The translations under genes and the position numbers were made by a program. A DNA stretch of 64,000 bases from Candidatus Thorarchaeota archaeon (GTDB lineage Archaea > Asgardarchaeota > Thorarchaeia > Thorarchaeales > Thorarchaeaceae): assembly GCA_013388835.1 (NCBI GenBank), contig JACAEL010000068.1:1-64000 (forward strand). Reading direction: 5' to 3'. Shown here in pieces: positions 44,613 to 55,046 of this stretch (the stretch's first letter is position 1; every line of letters begins with the position of its first letter). Below the pieces are notes generated by a model, which did no database searches, was not told the origin of the DNA, and saw only the letters and a program-made list of their open reading frames with translations.

Positions 44613-44728
44613 CCTTTGTTTGCGGTTCGAGAGCAACTCTGCTCGGAGTGGCATTTTGTTTGCTAATTGTGCCCTTCGATACTGAGGGTCAAGTTCCGAG
44701 TCAGAGCTGAGCAAGAAAGGTGAGCACT

Positions 44729-45673
44729 ATGGCAAGACCAGCGAAGGCCATGATTGACACTCAATATGGCATGGCATTGTGTTCGATCTGCGGCGGTAGT
44801 GACTTCTATGAAGACCACACGCGTGGTGAGACTATCTGCACAACGTGTGGCTGCGTTATCAGTGACAAGATACTCGATGCAGGCCCAGAGTGGAGGGCAT
44901 TCACAGCCGAAGAGAGAAACGCAAGGGCCAGGACTGGTTCACCCATGACGCTCACAATGGCAGACAAGGGCCTTGCCACGACGATAGGCTGGAGCGACAG
45001 AGACGCAAATGGACGGTCTATCGCCGCAAACAGTCGTGCTGCAATCTACCGAATGCGCAAGTGGCAGATTCGCACTCTTGTCCATAGTTCACAGCACAGG
45101 AACCTGAGCATTGCCATGAGTGAGATGGACCGGCTCACCTCACAACTGGGCATTCCCAGCGAGACCAAGGAGACCGCTGCTCTCATCTACCGAAAGGCTC
45201 TTGGAAAGAGACTCGTGCGTGGCAGAAGCATTGAAGGCATGGTTGCAGCGACCATCTACCTCTCATGCCGCATCCACCGCATTCCAAGGCAACTCGATGA
45301 GATAGTCACCGAAGCCCGCGTGAACAGAAAGGAGCTGGGACAGTGCGTCCGACTCGTACTCAGGAATGTGCCAATCAAGGTGCCAATCCCGTCTGCAAAC
45401 GACCTTATGCCCAGAATCTCTGCAGACTTGGCACTGGAAGGCAGGACACTGCGATGCGCCATGGAGATAATCAACCAGGCTCGTCGTAGAGGCATCACAG
45501 CTGGAAAGGACCCCGGTGGTCTGGCCGCAGCTGCACTGTACATTGCAGGGATTATCGAGGATGACAGACGCACGCAGAGAGAGATAGCAGAAGCGTCTAA
45601 CGTGACTGAGGTGACTGTGAGGAACCGCTACAAGGACCTTGCGAACAGCCTCCAGATCACTATCAAGCCATAG
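44729..45673 (+). CDS. tfb: transcription initiation factor B (TFB), copy 1
   Basis: TFB recruits RNA polymerase to the TBP-bound promoter. The 314-residue protein has an N-terminal zinc ribbon, CSICGGSDFYEDHTRGETIC with TTCG, then the B-finger region EWRAFTAEERNARARTGSP. Two cyclin-like repeats follow from about residue 110; their signature parts are RSIEGMVAATIYLSCR and DPGGLAAAALYIAG. The C-terminal HTH, TQREIAEASNVTEVTVRNRY, contacts the BRE. It is a close paralogue of the gene at 62070. ATG 44729 is preceded by AGGTGA. Confidence 0.96.
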   Translation: MARPAKAMIDTQYGMALCSICGGSDFYEDHTRGETICTTCGCVISDKILDAGPEWRAFTAEERNARARTGSPMTLTMADKGLATTIGWSDRDANGRSIAANSRAAIYRMRKWQIRTLVHSSQHRNLSIAMSEMDRLTSQLGIPSETKETAALIYRKALGKRLVRGRSIEGMVAATIYLSCRIHRIPRQLDEIVTEARVNRKELGQCVRLVLRNVPIKVPIPSANDLMPRISADLALEGRTLRCAMEIINQARRRGITAGKDPGGLAAAALYIAGIIEDDRRTQREIAEASNVTEVTVRNRYKDLANSLQITIKP

Positions 45674-45747
45674 AGTGGAGCCACAGACTCCACTCATGAC
45701 GAGTGAACACAAACTCCTTCTGCATGTTCAGTATACTGTCTGCTGAC

Positions 45748-46500
45748 ATGAAGCAGTTCCTACTTGCAGTCTGTGGAATACCTGCCTCAGGCAAGTCAAC
45801 CCTTGCGAAAGCCATAGCTGCAAGACCGGAGATACCTAGAGCCGCAGTAGTCAGTACTGATAGATGGAGAGACAGCGAGTACTACAGAGAATTCAGACCA
45901 GAGAATGAAACAGGGGTCAGGATGGCGGCATTCCAGCAGTCAGCTCGACTGCTCGAAGAGGGAATCTCAGTTGTCCATGATGACACTAACTACTATGTGA
46001 GCATGCGCCACGAACTCAGGACCCTAGCGCTAGAGAACGGGTGCCTCTACGCCGTCGTGTATGTGAGCACGCCACTGGACGTGGCTCTGGACTGGAACAG
46101 ACAGAGGGAACAACCGCTGCCTCCAGACGTGATATCAAGGATATCTCGAAGACTGGACATCCCCGGGGAGAAGTACGCTTGGGATACCCCTCTAGTGACT
46201 GTGAACCTCTCCGAGGAGAATGCTGAGGCAGCATCTGTCCGGGTGGTCGAAGCACTGAGAGAGTTGAGGCCAGCAGACCGACCTCCGTCATCAACTCGCG
46301 TTTCGACTCACATGGAACTGGACTTGGCCATGCGGTCGCTGATGACAGAGATGCTCTCTGCCAACAGAGCCCTCAGGACTGACACGCGAGTGCACGCCAT
46401 ACGAAAGAGGGTTCTCAAGTGGGCGGTCAGGGAAGATGTCGATGCATCTGACGCCGTCCGGGTTCTCGAGTCAGAACTGAGAAGAGTGTTGGAAGGATAG
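45748..46500 (+). CDS. pstK: O-phosphoseryl-tRNA(Sec) kinase
   Basis: PSTK phosphorylates Ser-tRNA-Sec, the second step of archaeal/eukaryal selenocysteine synthesis. The 250-residue protein starts with a P-loop strand, LLAVCGIPASGKSTLAKAIA. It has the Walker-B-like region VVHDDTNYYVSMRHELRTLA near residue 72 and RISRRLDIPGEKYAWDTP near 130. The C-terminal helical domain, LRTDTRVHAIRKRVLKWA, would bind the tRNA. Identification is strengthened by tRNA-Sec, SepSecS and EFSec within 4 kb. It converges on tRNA-Sec, 24 bases away. ATG 45748 is chosen; an ATG eight codons upstream is possible. Confidence 0.9.
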   Translation: MKQFLLAVCGIPASGKSTLAKAIAARPEIPRAAVVSTDRWRDSEYYREFRPENETGVRMAAFQQSARLLEEGISVVHDDTNYYVSMRHELRTLALENGCLYAVVYVSTPLDVALDWNRQREQPLPPDVISRISRRLDIPGEKYAWDTPLVTVNLSEENAEAASVRVVEALRELRPADRPPSSTRVSTHMELDLAMRSLMTEMLSANRALRTDTRVHAIRKRVLKWAVREDVDASDAVRVLESELRRVLEG

Positions 46501-46524: not shown

Positions 46525-46615
46525 TGGCGGCCCCCCAAGAGAATCGAACTCTCATCGCTTGCGCGATCATGGGTTTGAAGCCCACGGGACTCGACCACGA
46601 GTCCTTTGGGGGGCC
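46525..46615 (-). tRNA. selC: selenocysteine tRNA (anticodon UCA)
   Basis: Read on the minus strand the gene folds as a typical archaeal/eukaryal tRNA-Sec. The acceptor stem is 9 bases (GGCCCCCCA with TGGGGGGCC). The D stem is 7 bases (GGACTCG/CGAGTCC) with a TGGT loop. The anticodon loop CTTCAAA carries UCA. The extra arm is long (ATCGC-GCAA-GCGAT). The T stem is 4 bases (AGAG/CTCT) with loop TTCGATT. This 9+4 form distinguishes it from bacterial 8+5 tRNA-Sec. The discriminator is G and CCA is encoded at 46525-46527. It lies 27 bases after the 218-residue ORF and may share its transcript. Confidence 0.97.
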
Positions 46616-46642
46616 TCTGATGAGACATACCACTGCGCCATG

Positions 46643-47299
46643 CTATAGGTACTTTGAGAGCACTGAGAGTGTGTCCTTCTTCCATTCCACTGACTTCTTG
46701 GCAAGCTCGGTCGCGAGTCCACCGGGGAGAGGATCGGACCTTGGCAGTGGCTCGAGCTGCCTGAGCCAGCCGCTGGTGGTGAGGGCCAGCGGATGAAGTT
46801 CCTCGCCCTCAGTGGCTTTGATGAACATCTCTCTGCCATGAGCAATCTGCATGTACACATCGTCCAGGGGGGCCTTGTTAAGAATAGCAAACACAAGGCG
46901 ATCCCAGCAGATCTTGGCCAGCAGTGCGCGCTTGACACGCTGCTTGCTGTCATCAGGAAGCTCATTGTACTTGGACACCTGAGACGAGACTTGCGTCATC
47001 AGCTCCCCGAGGAGCGACTCTGCATCGGACTTGTCCCGCGACCAGACCACAAACTCAACCTCTTTCTTAGACTCATCCACCCAGACATTCACTGCAAAGG
47101 GCTTGTCACCAATCTTCAGTGAGAAGTGAGCCTTGCCCTTGAACACCTGGCTCTCAGCCTCGCTGTACTCCTCAAGGAGAACCCCCGGCCGAGAGGCTAC
47201 GGCATTCCACGCTATCTTGAATATGACCGCAGACTCCGGGTGCGAGTAGCTCAGCGTACGAGCGGCTTTTGAGTACTGTGTCAAGTCTTCCACGGGCAT
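46643..47299 (-). CDS. unknown protein inside the selenocysteine operon
   Basis: This 218-residue soluble protein sits between SepSecS (12 bases upstream) and tRNA-Sec (27 bases downstream) on the same strand. The N-terminal half is alpha/beta with SQVFKGKAHFSLKIGDKPFA then VNVWVDESKKEVEFVVWSRD. The C-terminal half is helical and polar, for example KYNELPDDSKQRVKRALLAK. I recognise no domain; the pattern of charged strands and helices could bind RNA. The ATG has CGAGGG before it. Position makes a role in selenocysteine metabolism plausible, for instance in tRNA-Sec handling, SECIS recognition or selenium supply. This is inference from gene order only. Confidence 0.75.
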   Translation of the reverse strand: MPVEDLTQYSKAARTLSYSHPESAVIFKIAWNAVASRPGVLLEEYSEAESQVFKGKAHFSLKIGDKPFAVNVWVDESKKEVEFVVWSRDKSDAESLLGELMTQVSSQVSKYNELPDDSKQRVKRALLAKICWDRLVFAILNKAPLDDVYMQIAHGREMFIKATEGEELHPLALTTSGWLRQLEPLPRSDPLPGGLATELAKKSVEWKKDTLSVLSKYL

Positions 47300-47311
47300 C
47301 CCTCGTGCTCT

Positions 47312-48643
47312 CTAGCTCCCTTCTGGGAGGGATGTGAGCCCTTTAAGAAGTTTCGTGGATGCACTCTCAACGTCCACGCGTCTTGCTCCAATGGCAGAGT
47401 TGACCACCACGTAGCTCTCAGGGTAGTTGTCCACGCAGGCACCGAACTCACCCCGGACCACAACACGAGGACCAGTGACCCTTCGTTCATATAGATAGGC
47501 CCCGAGTCTCCGAGCGTCATCAAGACCCACAGTCATTGCACAGGCGATTGGACTCACCACATCGAGTACCCTCTGACCCGTCGTCGAGGCAATCTCCTCA
47601 ATGCGCGACTGGAGGAACGCTCGGTTCTCAGTCTGTTCCTGCCGCAGCTTAACATAGCCCTCTTCTCCCAACACCAGCATGGCTGCAAGCGTCTGGACTA
47701 CAGGCGCCGCTGACGCACGTCCCGCATAGGTGGCAGCCGTCCATTCGATGACTTGGCTGTGTGGTGATACAACTATGGAGGCGCCCACTGGTGCAAGGAA
47801 GTTCTTGTCGCTGCTCTGAACAATGGCGTCCACCCGTCCGGCGTCTACTGCGGCCCGGATGAGCGCCATGACCTGAGCCGACTGGACCCCATATGCATTG
47901 TTGATTACAAGGGGAGTGTTTCTCTCGGCACAGAGTCGTGCTATCTCCTTTACCGGGTCGGGTTCTCGCGGCGGAAAGAAGGTGGTCGTGGCAAGTACGG
48001 CTTGGCCACTGTCCGGCCGCATGAGCCTCTCAAGAGCACTCAGATCGGTTTGCACTGCATCCCCTTCAATCAGATTCGGGATGGACACTTCTTCAAGGCC
48101 AGCCATGGCAATGGCCCTCTTCGGAGACAGGTGGTCCAGTCGTGGATAGAGCACCTGACGCACCCCGAACTCACGTCGCAGAGCGGCGAGGACAAGGGCA
48201 ATGGTCATACCGGTCGACAGCGGCACCACGAACCCATGTCGGACGTTACTGAGACCGAGTTTGCGTATGGCGTCGACTGCCACTGTGTTGGCGATGTTCT
48301 GCATCAGTGAAGCACCAACCGCCTTGGGTTGAGGATTGGTCACATGTCCGCTGCGTCCAATGCCATGATTGAACCCCAGAGACAGACGACCGATGAGTGG
48401 AGAGGCAGCTCGACCCTCCCGCTCTCCCACTCGAGCAGCTTCAGGGTCCTTGTCCGAGTCCAGAGATGAAAGGATGCGAATCAGCCACTCGACTTGGACG
48501 TCGTCCAGTGCCTTCTTTGGAAAGTGCCTCCTGTTGATGACATCCTTCACAGGGTTCAACAGTGCACCTAGAGTAGTCAGTCCACGGACTGCCATGTGAG
48601 GCGGCAAGACCTCGCTGATTCGCTTCTCAATCTCGTCTTCCAA
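47312..48643 (-). CDS. spcS: O-phosphoseryl-tRNA(Sec):selenocysteinyl-tRNA synthase
   Basis: SepSecS converts phosphoseryl-tRNA-Sec to selenocysteinyl-tRNA-Sec with selenophosphate and PLP. The 443-residue protein has the family segments ERAASPLIGRLSLGFNHGIG-like SPLIGRLSLGFNHGIGRSG near residue 83 and QPKAVGASLMQNIANTVAVD near 105. VPLSTGMTIALVLAALR lies near 140 and VINNAYGVQS near 245. The PLP lysine is in QSSDKNFLAPVG near 280. I chose the TTG at 48643 because AGGAGG lies 8 bases before it; it overlaps the end of the EFSec gene by 17 bases. A longer frame upstream lacks such a signal. Confidence 0.93.
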   Translation of the reverse strand: MEDEIEKRISEVLPPHMAVRGLTTLGALLNPVKDVINRRHFPKKALDDVQVEWLIRILSSLDSDKDPEAARVGEREGRAASPLIGRLSLGFNHGIGRSGHVTNPQPKAVGASLMQNIANTVAVDAIRKLGLSNVRHGFVVPLSTGMTIALVLAALRREFGVRQVLYPRLDHLSPKRAIAMAGLEEVSIPNLIEGDAVQTDLSALERLMRPDSGQAVLATTTFFPPREPDPVKEIARLCAERNTPLVINNAYGVQSAQVMALIRAAVDAGRVDAIVQSSDKNFLAPVGASIVVSPHSQVIEWTAATYAGRASAAPVVQTLAAMLVLGEEGYVKLRQEQTENRAFLQSRIEEIASTTGQRVLDVVSPIACAMTVGLDDARRLGAYLYERRVTGPRVVVRGEFGACVDNYPESYVVVNSAIGARRVDVESASTKLLKGLTSLPEGS

Positions 48644-50027
48644 AGCGGTATTCCTCCTCGGTATATGTTTCGTACAGTACATCAGTGCCCGTGGTGGGCA
48701 TCGAGTCGAAGACAGCCACCATGACGCCCTTCGTACCAAAGGCCTCGACGAGTCGCCCTTGAACTCCAGCTGGAGTGTGAACGACTCGGTTGATCAGGAG
48801 TTCTGCAGACTCACGCCGGGTGGCCAGGCCTTCAACCAGCACGTCAGTCGCTCTAACGCGCTGTACTCGCCCGACTCGGACGTGTTTTTGCAGGAGACGG
48901 AGTGTGTCATGAGTCGCCGTTACTTGTCCGGACCCAACCACTCGCATCTGCGTGGGAGGGAGGTCGGACCTCATGAGCAGCACCCTGGACCCTACAGGGA
49001 CCGGGAGTCTCTCGGCGAGCAGCAGTGCGGCCGTGATGTTTGGGCCCTCGGCCCGGTCGAGCACAACCCAGCCTCTCTCCGTCGCTTCCAGCGGCACCAG
49101 CTCCGCTGTGACTGTCGGAATGCCGACTGTCGCGGTCAGGACCATTCTCTTGGTGATGCTGCCTCTGTACAGTGGACTGACATACAGATCCACTGTCAGA
49201 CTGTCGGACAGACTCATGCTGCCTGGAGAGCAGAGATAGTCCCCACGATGGACGGTCTCGTGGTGTATCTCTGGGACGTTCACTCCCACCCGGTCGCCAG
49301 CTGAGGCCTCCTCTCTCTCCGTGCCGAATGTCTGTATGGAACGTACTCTTGCGACAGCCCCCTGAGGCATCAGCTCTACAGTGTCCCCTGTGCGTAACCG
49401 CCCCTGAAGGACTGTACCAGTCATCACAGTACCGTGACCTCTGACCAGGAAGGCATGGTCAATGGGAATCAGAAGTGGTGCTGCCGGATCACGTCTCTTG
49501 GGCCGGAGGATGGTCAGCAGCTTGGCCTTTAGCGAGTCGATACCATCACCTGTGACTGCAGACACACGGGCGTACTCCACAGTCTTGAAAGATGTCTCAG
49601 CCATGATGGCCCTCATACGGTTCTCGACCGCGTGGACAGCTGCGGCTGTCGCGGAGTCAGTCTTTGTTATGGCTACAAGAACACTCTCGACACCCATTGC
49701 CTCAAGCACGATGATGTGCTCACCCGTCTGCACTTTCGGTCCCTCGTCTGCAGCGACGACAAGAATAGCCGCATCAATTATGCCGGCGCCCGCGACAACA
49801 CTGCGGATGAGGTCGGCATGCCCCGGTGCGTCCACCAGAGTGACAAGATAGTCCTCCATGGTGAACATGGTGAAGCCAAGGTCAATGGTTATTCCTCGCT
49901 CTTGGGCCTGTGGATGCTTGTCCAGTCCTGCTGTGGACACCTTTGTGCTGAGGACGCGGGCCAGAGAGGTCTTGCCATGGTCTATGTGGCCCACCAGACC
50001 GACATGAACTGGAGTCAGACCTGTCAT
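48627..50027 (-). CDS. selB: selenocysteine-specific elongation factor EFSec/SelB
   Basis: EFSec is a GTPase that delivers Sec-tRNA-Sec to the ribosome at UGA codons. The 466-residue protein begins GLTPVHVGLVGHIDHGKTSL (G1). It shows AQERGITIDLGF (G2), TLVDAPGHADLI (G3) and VAITKTDS (G4), followed by EF-Tu-like domains 2 and 3 and a short C-terminal domain ending FGRRD. The G2 region RGITIDLGF is characteristic of SelB/EFSec rather than EF1A. The short fourth domain is archaeal/eukaryal-like. ATG 50027 was preferred to a GTG 17 codons upstream. It heads the operon with SepSecS and the 218-residue gene. Confidence 0.93.
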   Translation of the reverse strand: MTGLTPVHVGLVGHIDHGKTSLARVLSTKVSTAGLDKHPQAQERGITIDLGFTMFTMEDYLVTLVDAPGHADLIRSVVAGAGIIDAAILVVAADEGPKVQTGEHIIVLEAMGVESVLVAITKTDSATAAAVHAVENRMRAIMAETSFKTVEYARVSAVTGDGIDSLKAKLLTILRPKRRDPAAPLLIPIDHAFLVRGHGTVMTGTVLQGRLRTGDTVELMPQGAVARVRSIQTFGTEREEASAGDRVGVNVPEIHHETVHRGDYLCSPGSMSLSDSLTVDLYVSPLYRGSITKRMVLTATVGIPTVTAELVPLEATERGWVVLDRAEGPNITAALLLAERLPVPVGSRVLLMRSDLPPTQMRVVGSGQVTATHDTLRLLQKHVRVGRVQRVRATDVLVEGLATRRESAELLINRVVHTPAGVQGRLVEAFGTKGVMVAVFDSMPTTGTDVLYETYTEEEYRFGRRD

Positions 50028-50686: not shown

Positions 50687-51736
50687 ATGGCAGACGATGC
50701 CGACAAGCTCGACAAGACTGAGGAAGAACGTGACCTCGAACAGGACGAGAAGGTCAAGAAACCCACAACCGAGCCTCCAAAGGAGACCAAGTCTCGAAGG
50801 GGCAATCTTGTGGGGATATTCTTCAACGTCAGAATGCTCAGGAGGCTTGTTCAAATCTTCTTCTTCGTAGGCATAAACGCGTACATCCTCGCCTCTTGGA
50901 CAGGTGGAGAGGCACTACTCGCCTTCTGGCAAGCCGTAAGGACGGCCCTTCCAACACTGCCCATAATTGCTCCTCTCGAGGCCCCCTTTGCAGCAATTGC
51001 TGGTTCGTTCGACACACTCCAGAGAGAGCTGACTGCAGGGGCGTTCCCATTCTTCACATTGGGAGCAATGATCATAATCCTCACAGTCTTGGGCAGAGCA
51101 CCCTGCGCATGGATATGCCCGATTGGTACCATCCAAGACTTCTGTACGCTTCCAAAACGGACTAAGGTCAGACCCTCTCCGAACACTGAGGCGGAACTCA
51201 GACGAGTGAAAGGATACCTCTTCTTCCTCGTCATCTTGTTTGCGATCTGGATGGGGGTGAGCAGAATCACGGGCAATGCTGCAAACCTCGAGAAGATACT
51301 TGGTATCTTTGCACAGGCCCCATTCGACCCGTTCAACCCTGCATACATACTCTTCTTCAGGATGACTGAGCTGAACTGGCCCAACAGCGTCAACACCCTC
51401 TGGTACCTGATGACCTTTGGTCCCATCGCATGGCTGCAGATCATCTTTGTGTTCTTGGTATTCGCAGTGTCCTTCTGGGTGCCAAGGTGGTTCTGCCGCT
51501 GGCTGTGTCCAGCTGGCTGGTTCTATGGGGTCTTCTCAAGAGACTCTCTGATCGGCATAGGACGCAATCCCGCAAGATGTACTCCTGACACCTGCAATGT
51601 GTGCGAAGTTGTGTGCCCCATGAACATCAGGATACGAAGGTTCCCCTATCAGCACATGTACTCTCCGGACTGCATCATGTGTCTTGAATGCAAGAGCCAC
51701 TGCCCCAACAAGGCGATTCAGATAAGGTTCTCATGA
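50687..51736 (+). CDS. NapH/CcoG-like membrane ferredoxin
   Basis: The 349-residue protein has a charged N-terminal tail of about 40 residues, then about five transmembrane helices. Polyferredoxin motifs on the inner side are CAWICPIGTIQDFC near residue 138 and CRWLCPAGWFYGVFS near 268, and two further clusters near the end are CNVCEVVCPMNIRI and CIMCLECKSHCPN. Such proteins pass electrons between quinones or ferredoxin and membrane redox enzymes. No nap or nos genes are nearby. GTTTTTAATGAC near 50626-50637 is a likely TATA box. Confidence 0.88.
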   Translation: MADDADKLDKTEEERDLEQDEKVKKPTTEPPKETKSRRGNLVGIFFNVRMLRRLVQIFFFVGINAYILASWTGGEALLAFWQAVRTALPTLPIIAPLEAPFAAIAGSFDTLQRELTAGAFPFFTLGAMIIILTVLGRAPCAWICPIGTIQDFCTLPKRTKVRPSPNTEAELRRVKGYLFFLVILFAIWMGVSRITGNAANLEKILGIFAQAPFDPFNPAYILFFRMTELNWPNSVNTLWYLMTFGPIAWLQIIFVFLVFAVSFWVPRWFCRWLCPAGWFYGVFSRDSLIGIGRNPARCTPDTCNVCEVVCPMNIRIRRFPYQHMYSPDCIMCLECKSHCPNKAIQIRFS

Positions 51737-52103: not shown

Positions 52104-52337
52104 TCAGTGACCCCATCTCATTCTTTCGGGCTTCGTGTCCTCTTTGTAGGCCTTCTTTATCTTCTTGTAGTGGTCCGCACAGAGATACACTCTCCGTGCA
52201 CGGGGGTCCTTTGTCTTGAGCCCTGAACGAGAGAGGGTCTCACCAATACGCGTTGTTGAAAAAGACTTCTTGGAGGGCTTGTCACAGCCCTGGACGCTGC
52301 AGATTTTCTCAGACTTCTCCAAGGTATGCCACTTCAT
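52104..52337 (-). CDS. small basic zinc-binding protein
   Basis: The 77-residue product is rich in Lys and Arg. ICSVQGCDKPSKKSF near residue 12 and RRVYLCADHYKKIKKAYKE near 50 provide Cys, Cys, Cys and His for one zinc. ATG 52337 lies about 30 bases after a TATA-like GTTATAATTG, so the transcript would be leaderless. The basic character suggests binding to rRNA or another nucleic acid. I do not know a named family. Confidence 0.7.
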   Translation of the reverse strand: MKWHTLEKSEKICSVQGCDKPSKKSFSTTRIGETLSRSGLKTKDPRARRVYLCADHYKKIKKAYKEDTKPERMRWGH

Positions 52338-52370
52338 GTGTGGGACTGGGAGCACAATTATAACATTATC

Positions 52371-53351
52371 TCATCTGGGAGTGAGAACGGGTCCCCTCTC
52401 AAAGTCGAAGACAACACGTTCCTCTCCTTGGTAGCTGACGCGGAGTGACGATGAGTCATCCACTGACCCAATACATACTGCACGCATCCCATGCTTGTTG
52501 ACGCACTTGGTGACCTGTTCAATTCTTCCCTGACTTACCGAGACAAGAAAACCCAAAGACAGGTACATTCGAATCCAGTCAATGAGTGGGATGGGAATCG
52601 GTCGGCTTGCATTTACACTGTCAAGGTCGACCAGCCCGCCTACACCTGAGTACTCAAGCATCATGCCGGAAGTCCCTATCAGACCTGCAACTGAGACATC
52701 CTTTGATGCACTCAGAAGGTGCGCCTTGGCCAGTGCATTCATGGTGGAGAGGCGGAGACCTATGACATCGGCACTACGACCAGTGACCGAGTCCCAGCCT
52801 AAGCGATAGTGGACGCCCCGCTGACCCGCAGGGTCGAAGATCAGGACCAGTGAGTCACCGGGACGGGCGCCGCCTGCGGTGAGCAAGTCCTTCTTGCGAA
52901 CTCTCCCGGTGGCAGAACCGACCACATATGTCGAGCGGGACTGGGGGTTGGTGTGTCCTCTCACGATGGGTACTCGAAAGGTATGTGATGCCTCGATGAG
53001 GCCACGCAGCATCTCCTCTCCAATGGAGGGGGAGGAGTACGACAGAGCAACAGCGAACGAGGTGGGGATGCCACCTGCCGCATAGATGTCCATGACACAA
53101 GCGAGGACGACGTTGAAGCCTGCGGCTCGGGGATGTGCGACACAGAGTTCCTCCACAATGGAGTCAGTTGTCAGGAGGACGGTGTCTGCAGAGCCTCCCT
53201 CAATGGCCGCCGAGTCCTCGCCTAGAGTGTGCTCGGAGACCCCCGCGTAGGACTCTTTACGAAGACGCCCTATTATGGCTGGGAGGACGTACTTCCGGGT
53301 GATTCCATCAAACCTGTGAAGAACACCCACTATCTCGTCAATGTCACTCAA
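52371..53351 (-). CDS. AIR synthase / SelD / HypE superfamily protein
   Basis: The 326-residue protein has the PurM-like ATP-binding fold: GEDSAAI near residue 45, LLTTDSIVEEL near 60, CVMDIYAAGGIPTSFAVALS near 85 and RGHTNPQSRSTYVVGSATGR near 130. This order matches AIR-synthase-related proteins such as the sll0787 group and methanogenesis marker 2. It is not a typical selenophosphate synthetase because the N-terminal Gly-Cys/Sec-Gly loop is missing. It is nevertheless the only relative of SelD in the window, 2.3 kb from the EFSec gene. The TTG at 53351 is the first usable start. An ATG at 53372 is in frame but is separated from it by a TGA codon. Confidence 0.8.
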   Translation of the reverse strand: MSDIDEIVGVLHRFDGITRKYVLPAIIGRLRKESYAGVSEHTLGEDSAAIEGGSADTVLLTTDSIVEELCVAHPRAAGFNVVLACVMDIYAAGGIPTSFAVALSYSSPSIGEEMLRGLIEASHTFRVPIVRGHTNPQSRSTYVVGSATGRVRKKDLLTAGGARPGDSLVLIFDPAGQRGVHYRLGWDSVTGRSADVIGLRLSTMNALAKAHLLSASKDVSVAGLIGTSGMMLEYSGVGGLVDLDSVNASRPIPIPLIDWIRMYLSLGFLVSVSQGRIEQVTKCVNKHGMRAVCIGSVDDSSSLRVSYQGEERVVFDFERGPVLTPR

Positions 53352-54227: not shown

Positions 54228-55046
54228 ATGCCAAAACCGAGTGTTCTCTGCCCAGCATGCGGTCTTGAGGTCCCGATGGGCCGTTTCTGCAAGAACTGCG
54301 GCAGCCCACTTCCCACCGAACTGCTTCCTGCAGAGGAGACCTCGCAACAGGAACTTGTGGCTGATGGACAGGTGGAACCTGAGCCTTCAGAAGACCAGAC
54401 GAAAAGTGACCTCGATGAGGTCGCATTGCCGGACTTTGGTGTCCAGATTGACGGCATAGACTCAATGACCCTTGCGCTGCTGCTCTCACGCTCTGAACTT
54501 GAGCTGATAGATGCTGAACTTGACCACATGATTGGTGTCATTCAGGCAACCAGACAGGCTCTAAAGCTGACACAGGCCGACAAGGCGGTGCTGACGCGAA
54601 GAGCCGAGGAGCTGAAGGAGTCATTTGAGAGCCTAAAGTCGCGCAGAGAGGAACTCGGGAGGGTGTCCGGTGAGGTCATCCTGGAGAGCATACTGAAGGA
54701 CATCCATTCCCAGCGCAAGAAACTTGAGAAGCTGGAAGCAGCAGCAGAGACTCTGGATGCGTCAGTGGTCCGGGAGCAAAAGACGCAGCTCACTTCGCGG
54801 CTGAAAGAACTTGACAGCGACCGCAAGACGGCACTGAAGGTGGCCAAGGGTTGGCTCAAGGCCTTTGAACAACGACTTAAGGAGATGGACCGAGAAATGA
54901 GCCGACTAGATGCCAGACACAAGATTGGCGAGGTGGCCGATGACTCATACGAGGAGTTGAGAAGGAGAGGCGACCGGCTGATCAGAGTGGTTCAAGGCGG
55001 CCAGAAGCGGCTGGATGAGATGATAAGACAAGCTGAGAAGATATGA
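54228..55046 (+). CDS. zinc-ribbon protein with long coiled coil
   Basis: The 272-residue protein starts with a zinc ribbon, CPACGLEVPMGRFCKNCGS, near residues 6-24. An acidic linker follows to about residue 85. Heptad-rich helices then run to the end, interrupted near residues 145-150, for example LILESILKDIHSQRKKLEKL-like segments. The layout suggests a scaffold or adaptor that binds a partner through the ribbon and dimerises through the coil. No specific function is known. It precedes a Cys-rich small protein gene by 34 bases. Confidence 0.75.
   Translation: MPKPSVLCPACGLEVPMGRFCKNCGSPLPTELLPAEETSQQELVADGQVEPEPSEDQTKSDLDEVALPDFGVQIDGIDSMTLALLLSRSELELIDAELDHMIGVIQATRQALKLTQADKAVLTRRAEELKESFESLKSRREELGRVSGEVILESILKDIHSQRKKLEKLEAAAETLDASVVREQKTQLTSRLKELDSDRKTALKVAKGWLKAFEQRLKEMDREMSRLDARHKIGEVADDSYEELRRRGDRLIRVVQGGQKRLDEMIRQAEKI

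Follow-up and report, generated by a model that had tools for sequence, protein, structure and literature searches.

The window analyzed here is a 64,000-nt stretch of DNA from a Candidatus Thorarchaeota archaeon (assembly GCA_013388835.1, contig JACAEL010000068.1, positions 1 to 64,000), whose genome comprises 3.0 Mb in 125 contigs with a completeness of 97.6%. It carries a cluster of selenocysteine (Sec) genes in which a gene encoding a protein of 218 amino acids (aa), referred to here as SEL, lies between the genes for SepSecS and tRNA-Sec. The family-level relatives of the genome, together with NF045535, a model confined to Asgard archaea, point to an Asgard archaeon, probably of Thorarchaeia; the labels Thor-type and Loki-type are inferred in this sense. 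The cluster comprises the following features:

48627-50027, minus strand: EFSec/aSelB, with an ATG start, a GTPase domain, domain 2, aSelB_III, and a C-terminal RIFT-like domain
47312 to about 48682, minus strand: SepSecS, O-phosphoseryl-tRNA(Sec) selenium transferase (TIGR03531, 430 bits)
46643-47299, minus strand: SEL, 218 aa, a member of NCBIfam NF045535 Sel_Asgard with 212.5 bits (cut-off 132)
46525-46615, minus strand: tRNA-Sec, anticodon UCA, detected by ARAGORN (RF01852, 67.5 bits, gathering score 47)
45703-46500, plus strand: PSTK, L-seryl-tRNA(Sec) kinase, convergent to the Sec cluster

The compact operon described in an earlier note on this DNA was confirmed, with the first four features sharing the minus strand, gaps of 12 bases (SepSecS to SEL) and 27 bases (SEL to tRNA-Sec), and PSTK facing them. 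EFSec and SepSecS overlap by ~56 bases; alternative open reading frames extend EFSec to 50078 (GTG start) and SepSecS up to 48739 (TTG start). EFSec scored 37.9 bits against aSelB domain III and 279 bits against TIGR00475. The top NCBIfam match of PSTK (TIGR03574, 122 bits) is well below its cut-off of 290, and we noted that the position of this gene is conserved across loci of the window's family despite the low score.

A survey covered 228 Asgard genomes, scored over family cut-offs. NF045535 was present in 126 genomes and SepSecS in 130, with both genes in 111, SEL alone in 15, SepSecS alone in 19, and neither in 83 (Fisher p ~1e-27, odds ratio 32; the genomes are not independent). Several of the genomes with SepSecS and without SEL, such as G019, G175, and G192, are contig-edge cases and were not counted as real absences. 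Of the 111 genomes with both genes, 109 from several families have SEL directly downstream of SepSecS, sharing its strand and contig, and in 106 fewer than 500 bases separate the matched parts of the two genes. In neighbourhood maps, almost every genus of the window's family whose locus was complete has the order EFSec-SepSecS-SEL-tRNA-Sec. The shorter order EFSec-SepSecS-SEL was seen in families f11, f16, f23, and f5, and SepSecS-SEL in f2, f27, and f28; f4 has a divergent neighbour. The earlier statement that these genes are scattered in most archaea fails for the Asgard group: the Sec-using families examined usually keep them clustered, as EFSec-SepSecS-SEL or as SepSecS-SEL. The arrangement is not due to chance, since almost all genera of the window's family repeat the four-part order where the locus is complete, and SepSecS and SEL are adjacent in 109/111 genomes. 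It is also old, as it has been kept despite an identity of only ~15% between Thor-type and Loki-type SEL. SEL was found in none of 14 control genomes, which included the Sec-using M. jannaschii. The conserved position and the co-occurrence strongly support a functional link between SEL and Sec.

The structure of SEL was modelled with AlphaFold2 (AF2) from 58 aligned sequences, and the structure prediction proposed in the earlier note yielded a confident two-domain model (predicted local distance difference test (pLDDT) 94.5, predicted template modelling score 0.90). The model comprises a strand (residues 10-17), a helix (23-35), four strands within residues 41-87, a helix (90-113), and four helices (116-215). 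Residues ~10-113 are predicted to form a beta-alpha-4beta-alpha helix-grip/TBP-like domain of the adaptin-appendage platform type, and residues ~116-215 a four-helix bundle of the Vps28 C-terminal domain (Vps28-C) type. For SEL alone, nothing significant was found by Pfam, PDB sequence search, or Foldseek against the PDB (none at E<1e-3), and Foldseek against viral structures gave nothing useful. The top 50 Foldseek matches include the Vps28 C-terminal domain (2j9w; template modelling score 0.72 on the target, root-mean-square deviation 2.6) and the AP2 alpha appendage (2vj0; prob 0.98, E 0.08), which, judging from the aligned lengths, likely correspond to the helix bundle and the helix-grip domain, respectively.

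Only an intermediate led to the fold assignment: a SEL-like unit of ~195 residues forms the C-terminus of ~790-aa proteins of Lokiarchaeal type. These proteins also display UFL1, DDRGK, and PCI-type matches, a weak GAE-type (immunoglobulin (Ig)-like) match, and a Pfam VPS28 match across the last ~100 residues. In profile comparisons, SEL matched the C-terminal unit with an E-value of 3.6e-17 over 191 columns, and the unit matched Asgard Vps28 with an E-value of 2.3e-8 (score 61-65; column-shuffled controls ≤19); the direct comparison of SEL and Vps28 scored 31.6 (controls ≤21). An AF2 model of the unit with its preceding Ig-like domain (pLDDT 85) returned the AP2 beta2, COPI, and AP2 alpha appendages as top Foldseek matches (best E 3e-10). 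The profile of this unit and its appendage matches make a stand-alone platform plus Vps28-C module the best description of SEL. Computation shows the predicted two-domain fold, the conserved place behind SepSecS, and an ancestry that SEL has in common with the module ending the ~790-aa proteins. Two of the ~790-aa proteins are encoded in Lokiarchaeia-type genomes at L061:1680-4061(+) and L062:3902-6268(-), and we noted that such a protein looks like portions of the UFMylation E3 joined to a module of adaptin and endosomal sorting complex required for transport (ESCRT) type.

Compared with the adaptin/COPI appendages (2vj0, AP2 alpha; 1e42, AP2 beta2; 1pzd, gamma-COP), SEL shares the predicted helix-grip domain of the platform, with the homologous Ig-plus-unit region of the ~790-aa proteins matching entire appendages (E 3e-10). 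However, SEL lacks the rest of the adaptor subunit and the Ig-like sandwich, which is present in the AF2 model of its ~790-aa relatives, and has a short helix before the platform instead. The four-helix bundle likens SEL to the C-terminal domain of the ESCRT-I subunit Vps28 (2j9w), with homology via the ~790-aa proteins (E 2.3e-8), but a helix-grip domain takes the place of the N-terminal ESCRT-I core or steadiness box, and SEL has no PF03997 match. Asgard proteins joining appendage regions with Vps28-C have been described (Makarova et al. 2024, PMC10936438); they show the same succession of platform and Vps28-C in a multidomain context, whereas SEL stands alone inside a Sec operon.

The SEL family has been recorded before. 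NF045535 already names it "putative selenocysteine system protein", and one sentence in the Discussion of Huang et al. 2024 (PMC11227280) mentions a hypothetical protein that is confined to Asgard archaea, for example MBD3157761.1, and is often encoded near secS, efSec, and pstk. SEL appears to be this protein, by description and context. The window protein exceeds the NF045535 cut-off and lies in the same reported context. No other paper in the literature searched mentions MBD3157761.1. Fold, domain ancestry, and function are given neither by NF045535 nor in the available portion of Huang et al. 2024, and within incomplete literature coverage we found no paper tying SEL to adaptin appendages or Vps28-C. 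The new points are the ancestry of SEL in a trafficking module and its presence without Sec; the link of the gene to Sec is already published. The earlier suggestion that the gene may be a new factor is hence upheld as to a functional Sec link, and not as to newness.

In eukaryotes, both the platforms of appendages and Vps28-C serve as modules for protein docking (PMC10936438). SEL matched no enzyme family at useful strength (Pfam and NCBIfam among the searches), and no Cys or metal motif is conserved across the whole family. Four residues (D133, Y149, R156, and E157) are nearly invariant within the family, and the median isoelectric point (pI) is 5.4 in the window's family and 8.7 in Loki-type SEL. 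We give about even chances to SEL being a small, probably non-enzymatic adaptor of the Asgard Sec machinery, derived from a trafficking-type (adaptin-appendage/Vps28-C) module. As an adaptor, SEL would be produced together with SepSecS and EFSec, would bind one of them as a putative partner, and may bring together SepSecS, EFSec, charged tRNA-Sec, or the ribosome, so that the delivery of Sec-tRNA would be coupled to its synthesis; docking could involve the platform face, the helix bundle, or both. SepSecS is the first candidate partner because it is the most conserved neighbour. A more specific version, in which SEL is a dedicated Sec scaffold exapted from the adaptin-appendage/Vps28-C toolkit and, as a missing factor, anchors SepSecS or EFSec to tRNA-Sec, the Sec insertion sequence (SECIS), or the ribosome, is put forward tentatively. 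A role on the ribosome side would echo the UFL1/DDRGK-like paralogues. The adaptor proposal offers a concrete hypothesis with named candidate partners for an undefined step of archaeal Sec decoding, in the archaeal lineage closest to eukaryotes.

Several points weigh against the adaptor proposal. Part of the co-occurrence of SEL and SepSecS reflects shared descent. The fold assignment depends on the ~790-aa intermediate because the direct matches are weak; the similarity of SEL to Vps28 has a probability of 17%, and the Foldseek matches of SEL alone rank 45-49 and miss E<1e-3. SEL is also neither exclusive to Sec users nor indispensable to them, since Sec-less lineages carry relatives of it and the Sec-using family f13 has SepSecS and EFSec and lacks SEL; families f24 and f25 gave only short or weak Vps28-C-like matches.

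The Sec-less lineages deserve closer description. All eight genomes of family f9 (Hermodarchaeota) contain SEL over the cut-off, with no SepSecS, aSelB domain III, or tRNA-Sec over the cut-off or gathering score. The same three were absent over cut-off from a 1.4-Mb genome with a SEL score of 143 bits, which is Odinarchaeum-like by inferred lineage, and from family f12, which has weaker SEL relatives (82 bits). The available text of Huang et al. 2024 (PMC11227280) likewise reports no Sec use outside the Loki/Hel-, Thor-, and Sif/Borr-type clades. The earlier note had held that homologues widespread in archaea without Sec genes, or located away from Sec genes, would speak against a Sec factor; this objection applies in part, as Sec-less homologues do occur in these three lineages. 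Their presence implies that these lineages retained an older role without Sec, or else that a general adaptor gave rise to the Sec-specific branch by recruitment. The tree does not separate retention after loss of Sec from an older paralogue, with approximately unbiased test p-values of 0.10 for Sec-linked SEL as one clade and 0.12 for Sec-less SEL as one clade. We also noted that NF045535, an 'equivalog' model, passes its cut-off in the Sec-less genomes L065-L068 (Hermodarchaeota) and L069 (Odinarchaeum-like). Membership in Sec-less Asgard genomes runs against 'equivalog' naming, and the automatic "selenocysteine system protein" label may therefore mislead; the Sec-less homologues warn that the current database name over-reaches.

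Given that SepSecS and SEL form the most conserved pair, kept in Loki-type families f2, f27, and f28 where EFSec and tRNA-Sec have moved away, the role of SEL might instead be confined to delivering selenium or making Sec-tRNA, with SEL regulating SepSecS or forming one of its subunits (e.g., in selenophosphate channelling or tRNA-Sec holding). We regard this as unlikely, as no Cys or metal motif runs through the family and Hermodarchaeota keep SEL without SepSecS.

The Sec-less homologues in Hermodarchaeota, the Odinarchaeum-like genome, and f12 are also what would be expected if SEL had a general role (ESCRT/SPFH-like sorting or ribosome-linked) unrelated to Sec and was merely co-expressed with SepSecS. 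Genes for SPFH proteins (f9, f12) and zinc-ribbon coiled-coil proteins (f9, f3) lie near SEL, and its module also occurs in the UFL1/PCI/appendage proteins. Against this stand the adjacency to SepSecS, retained in several families though the surroundings were rearranged, and the 83 genomes with neither gene, which render a purely general role improbable.

Finally, it is very unlikely that SEL is the Asgard SECIS-recognition factor, binding SECIS and recruiting EFSec as a functional analogue of SBP2: although SEL is linked to EFSec/SepSecS, was restricted to Asgard archaea in the searches run (with M. jannaschii a negative control), and is mildly basic in Lokiarchaea (median pI 8.7), and although Asgard SECIS elements are eukaryote-like with SBP2 not found in the available account (PMC11227280), its predicted fold is of a protein-interaction type and not a known RNA-binding fold, its median pI is 5.4 in the window's family, it occurs in Sec-less lineages and is missing from f13 beside SepSecS and EFSec, and its closest neighbour is SepSecS (synthesis), not EFSec. 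The functional analogy to eukaryotic SBP2 is hypothetical only, with no sequence or fold resemblance and no L7Ae-type RNA-binding domain found (Pfam, AF2 fold, Foldseek). SECIS or tRNA-Sec binding, as raised in the earlier note, thus draws no support from the predicted fold or the acidic pI in the window's family; direct binding is possible but not favoured.

Further genes surround the Sec cluster in the window:

44720-45673, plus strand: transcription factor B (TFB), a conserved neighbour in the window's family (context only)
50687-51736, plus strand: NapH-like 4Fe-4S membrane protein (context only)
52104-52355, minus strand: c1, a conserved small Cys/His protein of 83 aa with no Pfam match (context only)
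52371-53351, minus strand: AIR-synthase-like gene (methanogenesis marker 2-like), which several families carry close to the Sec cluster
54228-55043, plus strand: coiled-coil protein with a zinc ribbon, weakly CdvA-like (E 0.002) and conserved in the vicinity of SEL in several families

Some of these neighbours are shared with Sec-less lineages. The c1 gene adjoins SEL in Sec-less families, lies within ~5 kb in the window, and is found near the Sec cluster in other families. The NapH-like gene neighbours the Sec cluster throughout loci of the window's family as well as SEL in the Sec-less Hermodarchaeota of f9 (L065:6731-7924(-)), and the zinc-ribbon coiled-coil gene occurs near SEL in f9 and f3 and, in the window, in the vicinity of the Sec cluster. 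The AIR-synthase-like gene was considered as a second Sec-specific factor and dropped, as it occurs in Sec-less Hermodarchaeota too. A correlation of SEL presence with divergence of EFSec domain III was likewise dropped, given that domain III is canonical (81-86 bits) in f11 and f23, both of which have SEL. The idea that SEL lies beside a full ESCRT cluster in Lokiarchaeia was rejected, since Vps28 lies ~7 kb away amid ribosomal, secY, adk, and cmk genes (names read from the sequences). We did note that a full-length Vps28 gene (L164:12103-12756(-)) shares a conserved block with SepSecS-SEL, ~7 kb away in L164, and that this block with Vps28 is present in four Lokiarchaeia-type genomes (L164, L165, L166, and L167).

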